DNA from: Sphingomonas aliaeris
Lineage (GTDB): Bacteria > Pseudomonadota > Alphaproteobacteria > Sphingomonadales > Sphingomonadaceae
Assembly (NCBI RefSeq): GCF_016743815.1
Contig: NZ_CP061035.1
Location: 3,531,001-3,595,000, forward strand
DNA length: 64,000 nt
Reading direction: 5' to 3'
Shown: piece after piece, positions 58,211 to 59,571 of the stretch
Layout of the letters: the number at the start of each line of letters is the position of its first letter
Position numbering within the stretch: the first letter of the stretch is position 1
Position numbers and translations under genes: made by a program
The notes under the pieces: generated by a model
Database searches by the model: none
Seen by the model: the letters and a program-made list of their open reading frames with translations, nothing else
Told to the model about the DNA's origin: nothing

Positions 58211-58224
58211 CCGTTCGTGCTGAG
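58211..58224. repeat. Left fragment of a palindromic repeat split by the insertion sequence
   Basis: CCGTTCGTGCTGAG is the outer part of the dispersed palindromic repeat. It is interrupted by the IS110 element and resumes at 59388. Joining the two flanks through one AG (CT on the element's strand) gives CTGAGCTTGTCGAAG, the normal repeat. Confidence 0.85.
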
Positions 58225-58233
58225 CAACTGTGT

Positions 58234-59187
58234 TCACGCGGTGCGATATTCGGTATTGTTTTTGACCATCGCGTTGAGGGTTATGAGCAGTTTTCGCATT
58301 GTGGCGACGATGGCAAGCTTGAAGGGTTTGCCGGCCTCTCGCAGGCGGTTGGTGGTAGCGGCGAGTTGCCCCTTGCCCGAGCGCGCGATGCTGAGCGCGG
58401 CCAGATAGAGACAACGCCTGATGCTGGGCCTGCCGCCCGAGCATCGCCCCGGCCGGCTGGTCTTGCCGCTTTGGCGATCGAAGGGGGCGAGGCCAGCAAG
58501 CGCTGCGACCTGTCGACTGGAGAGGCGTCCGAGTTCTGGCATGCGTGCCAGCAGGCATGCGGCAACGACCGGCCCGACGCCGGGTGCTGTGCGGAGCAGG
58601 GCTTCGCGAGCGGCCAGATCGGGCGAGGCGGCGATGACGCTGGCAATGGCTTTTTCGATGCGCAGAACCAGGGCCTTGAGCCGTGCGACCTGCGCGACGA
58701 CGAGGCGGCGCATGGCGGGATCGGCGATGCTCTCCAACTGATTGCCGAACTGGACCGCCTGGGCGACGGCAAGATCGCGCATGCGGACATGCTCGGCCAG
58801 CCTCACGGCCTCGGGATCATGGACATAGGGCGTCAGTTCGGGATGCAGTGCTGCCAGACACCGCGCGATGACGGCCGCATCGAGTGGGTCGGTTTTCGCG
58901 AGTTGTCGCTCGGCACGGGCGAAACTGCGCACGCGTGCCGGATCGAGGAGATAGGCTGTAACGTCCATCCGATCGAGCAGGATGGCGAGCTTGCGCTCGT
59001 AACCGCCCGATGCCTCGAAGCCGATCCGCAGGCACGCCGTACCGGCAAGCCGGACAAGCTTGCGGCCGAGTGCGGCAATGCCGGTCTTGGTATTGGGTAC
59101 CCGCCAGAGCATTCCTGCCGGATGAGCGTGGATAACGAGTTCGTCCTTGGCAACATCGATGCCGACAAAGAGGTCGGAGTGTGACAT
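58234..59187 (-). CDS. IS110-family transposase (DEDD recombinase)
   Basis: 317 aa from ATG 59187, preceded by GGGAG; an in-frame ATG at 59211 lies inside the structured RNA. The N-terminal RuvC-like domain has FVGIDVAKDELVIHAH (first Asp), LRIGFEASGGYERKL (Glu) and the KTDPLDAAVIARCL pair of Asp, the DEDD catalytic set. The C-terminal Transposase_20 domain has LLRTAPGVGPVVAACLLARM, AALAGLAPFDRQSGK and the nucleophile-region serine in GGRPSIRRCLYLAALSI. Length is normal; the gene appears intact. Confidence 0.95.
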   Translation of the reverse strand: MSHSDLFVGIDVAKDELVIHAHPAGMLWRVPNTKTGIAALGRKLVRLAGTACLRIGFEASGGYERKLAILLDRMDVTAYLLDPARVRSFARAERQLAKTDPLDAAVIARCLAALHPELTPYVHDPEAVRLAEHVRMRDLAVAQAVQFGNQLESIADPAMRRLVVAQVARLKALVLRIEKAIASVIAASPDLAAREALLRTAPGVGPVVAACLLARMPELGRLSSRQVAALAGLAPFDRQSGKTSRPGRCSGGRPSIRRCLYLAALSIARSGKGQLAATTNRLREAGKPFKLAIVATMRKLLITLNAMVKNNTEYRTA

Positions 59188-59193
59188 GATCCG

Positions 59194-59357
59194 GTCTCCC
59201 AAGCTTGTCATGCGGGGTCCGTAAGCACGGCCCCAGGCAACTGTCCGGGGTTTGGGAAGACGGATGTGGCCCTGCTCAGGAACGGTCTTTGTCGACCGGC
59301 TTGTCGAACGGCCTCACATCCGCCGCCTGAGCCGGGTGGCCACCCGGCTCAGGCACC
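59194..59357 (-). ncRNA. Bridge RNA (guide RNA) of the IS110 element
   Basis: Reading 5' to 3' on the minus strand there is a perfect 15-bp hairpin (59354-59325) and then two internal-loop stem-loops. The target-binding loop (59321-59262) has stem GGAUGUG/CACAUCC. Its left strand UUCGACAAGC equals the left target half, and its right strand CCUGAGC pairs with GCTCAG of the right half. The donor-binding loop (59261-59194) has stem GUCUUCCCAA/UUGGGAGAC. Its left strand ACAGUUGC equals the element's right end plus core, and its right strand GACAAGC pairs with GCTTGTC at the core/left end. Four guide matches in the expected places make this call strong; expression is not shown. The 3' stem includes the transposase ribosome binding site. 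Confidence 0.85.
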
Positions 59358-59363
59358 TTGCCG

Positions 59364-59392
59364 ATTACACCATTCCAGACAGACAAGCTTGT
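59364..59392 (-). promoter_or_regulatory. Possible junction promoter for the bridge RNA
   Basis: A TGTAAT -10 box lies at 59369-59364 (minus strand), seven bases before the RNA's first hairpin. In the integrated state the -35 position reads AAGCTT. In a circularised element the right end (..CAGTTG), core CT and left end T would form TTGCTT, 15 bases from the -10. This fits the known logic of IS110 circles making a promoter, but the spacing is short. Confidence 0.45.
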
Positions 59393-59438
59393 CGAAGCAC
59401 CTGGGGCCCGCCCTTCGACAAGCTCAGGACGAACGGAG
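59388..59438. repeat. Right fragment of the split palindromic repeat
   Basis: CTTGTCGAAGCACC, then a loop of G/C, then CCTTCGACAAGCTCAGGACG and AACGG. The second arm (59412-59438) contains TTCGACAAGCTCAGG, which matches both target guides of the IS110 RNA fully, better than the arm actually used. Confidence 0.85.
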
Positions 59439-59500: not shown

Positions 59501-59571
59501 CCGTTCGTTTCGAGCGAAGTCGAGAAACCGGGGACAGGCCAAGGTTTCTCGACTTCGCTCGAAACGAACGG
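59501..59571. repeat. Perfect inverted repeat with 29-bp arms
   Basis: Arms at 59501-59529 and 59543-59571 are exact reverse complements (CCGTTCGTTTCGAGCGAAGT at the outer edge), with a 13-bp loop. The outer six bases (CCGTTCG) are shared with the other palindromic family, but the rest differs. Another dispersed sphingomonad element. Confidence 0.88.

Follow-up and report, generated by a model that had tools for sequence, protein, structure and literature searches.

How does an insertion sequence come to lie at the same base of a short repeated palindrome ten times in one genome? This question is raised by an IS110-group element of Sphingomonas aliaeris located in the window, by which we mean the whole 64-kb stretch of DNA that was analysed. 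Insertion sequences targeting REPs had already been described by 2006 (PMC1525189). Bridge RNAs have since been predicted in 85.7% of the IS110-group elements examined by Durrant et al., with covariation across 5,511 target and 2,201 donor pairs (PMC11208160), and the same idea has been put forward by Siddiquee et al. for RNAs named seekRNA (PMC11187229). The original prediction for this locus held that the leader of the element encodes a complete bridge RNA and that the element is possibly uncharacterised. The latter is right for the element itself, as no paper on it was found in a literature search of papers apart from their supplementary files, which may list it, but not for the kind of mechanism, which is known because most of the IS110 family is predicted to have bridge RNAs (PMC11208160). 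The mechanism is thus the one published in 2024, of which the element is a good example, and not a new mechanism. Several questions follow. Where are the ends of the element and what does it insert into? Are guides for target and donor present in the leader? Do guides and targets change together among relatives?

The element, its ends and its relatives

The element occupies 59387-58225 on the minus strand (58225..59387) and is 1,163 bp long with one core counted, the ends having been set by ten copies in the same genome. Its gene (58234..59187, minus strand) encodes a recombinase of 317 aa, identified by profile matches and by alignment with IS621: both PF01548 (RuvC-like, 68.9 bits) and PF02371 (Tnp, 66.6 bits) are matched over the cut-off, and D11, E58, D100, D103 and S240, counted by hand on the alignment, correspond to the catalytic residues (DEDD and serine) of IS621. 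A short core is common to the ends and the target without a longer target duplication, as is typical of the IS110 family. The core had been taken as GC in the original prediction, which we correct to CT (left, 59386..59387; right, 58223..58224; minus strand): GCT is common to the left and right ends in the ten copies of this genome and leaves the choice ambiguous, but relatives of two types, G433 and G351, share only CT across their ends and sites, and the core of IS621 is also CT (PMC11208158). The left end is much longer than the right, with a leader of about 198 nt against a right end of 9 nt; the stop codon of the recombinase gene lies 9 nt before the right core, leaving no long right end carrying a guide RNA as in the IS1111 group, and this arrangement is that of the IS110 group of the IS621 type. 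By eye, a putative −10-like hexamer, TGTAAT (59364..59369, minus strand), would start a transcript near 59357; a sigma-70 scan of the inserted form of the element found no promoter. Rfam gave no match at the gathering threshold in the 64-kb window and only sub-threshold matches within the element.

Between the window copy and each of the nine others there are 1 or 2 differences in 1,163 bases, so few that the element has apparently been active recently. Relatives are sparse: at E ≤ 1e-60 the genus has them in 7 of 295 genomes, and at E ≤ 1e-30 the family has them in 9 of 397, with the element's own genome counted in both cases; the named loci encoding the closest of them are mostly from Sphingomonas. 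The predicted RNA is also present in relatives with 33-88% protein identity. A plasmid search returned four records, none reaching 80% query coverage, and a search of viral contigs for the bridge-RNA pattern gave no matches.

Insertion sites in a REP-like palindrome

All ten copies have inserted at the same base of one arm of a REP-like palindrome. The left junction reads CTTCGACAAG-CT in 10 of 10 copies, and the sequence preceding the element, which is the 10-nt left half of the arm, is in each case TTCGACAAGC; in the window this left target half, TTCGACAAG-CT, lies at 59386..59396 (minus strand). On the right, comparison of the junctions places the target half of the window copy, CT-CAGCACGAACGG, at 58211..58224 (minus strand), the nine other copies having CT-CAGGACGA where the junction of the window copy reads CT-CAGCACGA. 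The palindrome around the element has a second, uninterrupted arm (59413..59436 in the minus-strand annotation), which on the plus strand, at 59414-59434, is matched perfectly by the same guides. Nearby, at 59501-59571, a second REP class (CTCGACTTCGCTCGAAACGAACGG) is represented by a perfect inverted repeat of 29 bp, and the left half of this class is matched by the left guide of relatives of the type G100.

Is it the palindrome or a sequence within it that is read? For the exact locus, pieces of the flanks were found in relatives, with no clean empty site among the matches listed, and therefore uninterrupted sites of the same genome were used for comparison. The arm is common in this genome (110 matches to a loose pattern), and perfect uninterrupted target sites number 23. 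When the first 100 of the 110 pattern matches were taken as the sample of uninterrupted arms, the left half AAGC was present in 10 of 10 occupied but 33 of 100 uninterrupted arms (Fisher p = 4.1e-5), and the full site in 9 of 10 against 22 of 100 (p = 3.5e-5). One occupied site, L010, departs from the REP search pattern further out; with the nine remaining occupied sites the values are 1.0e-4 for the left half and 1.1e-4 for the full site. Occupied arms are thus enriched for the left half spelled by the guide, which argues that the element reads a sequence within the REP rather than the palindrome alone.

Guides in the leader

The predicted bridge RNA extends over 59197..59357 on the minus strand, as judged from a match to an RNA model (R1) and from covariation, its ends being approximate. 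It begins with a 5′ stem-loop (59325..59354), in which 5 of 13 pairs have compensatory changes in close relatives; this hairpin is nearly palindromic, and for that reason the model also matches the opposite strand weakly. The stem-loop with the target-binding loop follows at 59261..59322, supported by covariation, and that with the donor-binding loop at 59197..59257, which varies little in the close set of leaders and covaries in a wider one. The four guide strings lie where they had been predicted on the minus strand, and their order and polarity, with the target loop before the donor loop, are those of the published IS621 type. In the target loop, the left guide UUCGACAAGC (59299..59308) is assigned by its target match, by shuffling and by the guide-target matrix described below, and the right guide UCCUGAG, followed by a handshake base C (UCCUGAGC, which contains CCUGAGC; 59274..59281), by its target match. 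In the donor loop, the left guide ACAGUUGC (59237..59244) equals the right end of the element through the first base of the core, and the right guide GACAAG with its handshake base C (59203..59209) matches the donor. The donor-loop runs of the window element are 8 nt for the left donor and 6 nt for the right.

As had been claimed, the left target guide is identical to the left target half, and it is so in all ten copies. The claim that CCUGAGC is complementary to the right half is true in full of the nine other copies (GCTCAGGA), but in the window copy only 6 of 7 positions pair (GCTCAGCA); the right guide is accordingly fully matched at 9 of 10 copies, and the one mismatch of the window copy, whose palindrome offers a perfect uninterrupted site in its other arm, speaks against guidance by a bridge RNA. 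None of 20,000 dinucleotide-shuffled versions of the 172-nt leader contained all four guide strings together. Taken singly, the left target guide (10 nt) occurred in 3 of the shuffles, the complement of the right target (8 nt) in 67, the left donor guide in 58 and the complement of the right donor in 344. The four matches are not fully independent, because GACAAGC serves in the window copy both as the end of the left target and as the complement of the right donor. This dependence is broken in relatives of the type G085, which have the right donor guide CACAAGC and the donor GCTTGTG.

Folding and covariation

The 172-nt leader folds more stably than 200 of 200 shuffles (z = −4.66). All guides had been placed in loops, which holds in the structure drawn for comparison but not in the minimum free energy fold, where 4 of 10 bases of the left target guide, 5 of 8 of the right target guide and 2 of 7 of the right donor guide are paired and only the left donor guide is wholly unpaired. 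The free fold partly closes the target loop by pairing the target guides with each other, a point against the bridge-RNA interpretation, and the RNAalifold consensus of nine leaders likewise closes much of the target loop and has a donor stem unlike that of the comparison structure.

Covariation, which had been proposed as a check, was found. In an alignment of 21 sequences, 36 of 43 pairs show change on both sides, compared with a mean of 21.8 such pairs for shuffled controls and a maximum of 15 for controls with the partner slid. This alignment was fitted to the RNA model and is biased towards it, but both kinds of control fall well below the observed number. Compensatory changes occur in all six helices of this wider set. 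In the close set they are seen in 6 of 43 pairs, of which the 5′ hairpin has five and the inner stem of the target loop one, with none in the outer target stem or the donor stems.

Model R1 was built from nine close leaders including that of the window, on which it scores 214 bits at 59188-59359 as part of its own training set. It was applied to 27 of 38 distant loci, the other 11 being further copies of the types G433, G351 and G511. Beside the transposase start it finds the RNA in ten of these 27 loci outside the training set (nine at E ≤ 3e-5, one at 0.02), the remaining 17 giving no match. Among 396 genomes drawn from the order, six have matches under stricter filters, its own genome counted.

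Co-change of guides and targets

If the loops specify the sites, guides and targets should differ together. We scored 22 targets against the target loops of 10 elements, the ten window-type copies being represented by their two distinct targets and G511 by two of its four. Eighteen of the 22 targets score highest with the loop of their own element, seven of them in a tie; the other four do not rank their own element first, which counts against guidance by a bridge RNA. The mean cognate score is 13.05, compared with 9.69 when elements are permuted and 8.78 when targets are shuffled, and 1 of 20,000 permuted pairings scored as high as or higher than the true one. Left out of the matrix were CFBP8760 L024 (without a right end), OK281 L021 (stop codons), BT553 L023 (damaged right end), BT553 L026 (left half off register), G563 and G785 (no ORF over 200 aa found beside the RNA), G100 (unpaired fragments at contig ends), the truncated L125 of G186, and, their left junctions being undefined, L027, L029, L033, L092, L093, L095, L140, L141 and L144. 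In all seven types scored, the donor loop holds the element's own left donor (runs of 7-9 nt) and right donor (5-7 nt). Types are poorly told apart by the right donor, as CTTGTC is common to most of them; for the window donor, the loop of another element scores 7 and its own scores 6.

Guides kept while targets change, which had been named as a pattern telling against the prediction, were mostly not seen: the two change together both across types and inside one genome. Of five G433 copies, four lie before CTCTAG and the fifth before CTCCAG; their left halves are variable, rich in A and mostly end in TG, and the guides of this type are UAAAAAUGCU and CUAGAG. All four G511 copies lie in GCGGGA-AT-GACG, and there the guides are GCGGGAAU and CGUCAU. 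The genome G867 carries two copies (L137 and L143) differing at 124 of 1,162 positions, of which 10, including one compensatory pair in the 5′ hairpin, fall in the first 215 nt. Their left target guides are GAAAACGC and GAAACCGC, their right target guides CUAGAG and UUAGAG, and their donor guides are identical. The targets agree with these guides, being GAAAACGC/CTCTAG and GAAACCGC/CTCTAA, respectively, at the insertion sites GAAAACG-CT-CTAG and GAAACCG-CT-CTAA. The guide changes do not stand in an otherwise identical element, since 12% of the remaining positions, those of the gene among them, differ as well.

One type, G085, departs from this pattern in that its four copies lie in left halves that differ from each other and from the guide. 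In 4 of 4 copies the left target guide matches at no more than its first six or seven bases, against the bridge-RNA interpretation, and the right guide fits all four. The guide of one of them, L049 (UUCGACUUCGC), matches another REP variant of the same genome as well as 10 nt of the left targets at 6 of 7 G100 junctions; from these matches it is possible that L049 was re-aimed after insertion. In G100 itself a 10-nt guide match is present at 6 of 7 left junctions and the right guide is exact at one of four right junctions, so that this guide remains closer to the first REP class. The left half of BT553 L026 contains one additional base and is not matched by the guide of that copy, and by eye the left target guide fits poorly in L026, G563 and G785.

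Two further observations concern relatives. The G351 copies (L097, L101, L104, L107 and L109) use a different register of the second REP class for insertion, and this element has a short donor loop with handshake bases that do not fit. In the truncated L125, the leader stops within the right donor guide and is followed directly by CTCAGGAC-like target sequence, an arrangement suggestive of an internal deletion.

Handshake bases

In IS621, each right guide is followed by bases described as pairing with the non-cognate DNA (PMC11208158). In the window element, the corresponding bases are CA in the target loop (59273..59274, minus strand), complementary to donor positions 6-7 (TG), and CU in the donor loop (59202..59203, minus strand), complementary to target positions 6-7 (AG). 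Positions 6 and 7 thus fit on both sides; position 7 is G in donor and target alike, and therefore only position 6 is informative here. Across types, position 7 fits the non-cognate DNA in 10 of 11 on each side, G351 failing on both. The informative types are those in which donor and target differ at this position: the base fits in both G867 copies, in G315, in G433 and in G511, but not in G351. For position 6, agreement of the target-loop base with the donor is seen in 8 of 11 types, and that of the donor-loop base is uneven.

A model of insertion and its alternatives

Taken together, these comparisons make it very probable that the element belongs to the IS110 group and moves as IS621 does, by recombination guided by a bridge RNA. 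What the sequences themselves show is the recombinase gene, the termini of the element and its ten sites of insertion, together with guides that match, an RNA structure that covaries and, in relatives, guides that change along with targets; that the leader is transcribed, that the RNA binds the recombinase, that a circle forms and how strands are exchanged we infer from IS621. The process would be as follows. In the excised circle, the joined ends would rebuild a promoter from which the leader is transcribed, and the resulting bridge RNA would bind the DEDD-serine recombinase. The first loop would pair with one arm of the REP-like palindrome (CTTCGACAAG-CT-CAGGACGAACGG) and the second with the element's own joined ends, so that the recombinase could exchange strands at the CT core common to target and donor.

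Could the leader instead be an RNA or DNA hairpin that regulates the transposase, with the protein alone recognizing the REP-like palindrome and the guide matches incidental? A reader of palindromes would not favour AAGC arms, nor would it explain guides that change with targets across types and inside one genome, or the same RNA architecture in G433, whose target is unlike this REP. There are points in its favour, as several IS elements target REPs (PMC1525189), small RNAs are thought to modulate expression in ISPpu9 (PMC11208160) and the G085 copies tolerate a poorly matching left guide, yet we consider this explanation very improbable.

Still less can be said for assignment to the IS1111 group, with a guide RNA downstream of the gene and a reversed guide order. 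The protein family is the same and REP-targeting members occur in both groups, but the RNA lies upstream in a leader of about 198 nt, the right end has only 9 nt, the guide order is that of IS621 and, among solved structures, matches were to ISCro4 and IS621 alone; such an assignment is very unlikely. That this is an ordinary IS110 element, whose leader matches arose by chance and whose preference for REPs reflects harmless places of insertion, could draw on the partial dependence of the matches through GACAAGC and on the abundance of REP arms, with their 110 pattern matches. It is hardly credible in view of four guides that never occurred together in 20,000 shuffled leaders, ten junctions at the same base, covariation and guide-target co-change.

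Relation to known elements and implications

Bridge-RNA-guided recombination, as the preferred explanation, places the element beside IS621, which as described (PMC11208160, PMC11208158) it resembles in recombinase domains, catalytic residues, a bridge RNA at the left end consisting of a 5′ hairpin, a target loop and a donor loop, the order of the four guides, the CT core, a REP target and handshake bases. It differs in a distant protein (phmmer E 7e-23), in its guides, in the REP-like sequence targeted and in guide length, the left target guide having 10 nt instead of 9 and the right target guide 7 nt instead of 4; unlike IS621, it is known here as a sequence. Among solved structures the best sequence match is ISCro4 (PDB 9t56, E 8e-25), a comparison of proteins only. 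ISEc21, an IS110-type seekRNA element in which the upstream noncoding region is described as giving the targeting RNA (PMC11187229), is similar by that description. ISPpu9, ISPpu10, ISPsy8, ISPa11, ISRm19 and ISRm22 likewise insert specifically into REPs according to PMC1525189, in other hosts and other REPs; that paper of 2006 precedes the guide-RNA papers of 2024, and since ISPa11 is of the IS1111 type, the set spans groups.

How might such elements acquire new targets? We tentatively suggest, as an idea that could about as easily prove wrong as right and perhaps slightly more so, that sphingomonad IS110 elements re-aim by changes of guide bases with the rest of the RNA near-constant, that variation of REPs and guides is mutually chasing and that misfits like G085 are caught in mid-change. 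Re-aiming appears to have occurred towards another REP class (window type versus G100), towards other registers of one class (G100 and G351) and towards single-base target variants within G867.

The element offers a predicted multi-copy bridge-RNA system in an alphaproteobacterium with ten mapped natural insertions and 23 perfect uninterrupted sites, and because both occur in one genome, guide specificity can be read from nature. As apparent natural cases of re-aiming, the G867 pair and the window, G085 and G100 types could reveal which positions of a guide are important and how an element gains new targets.
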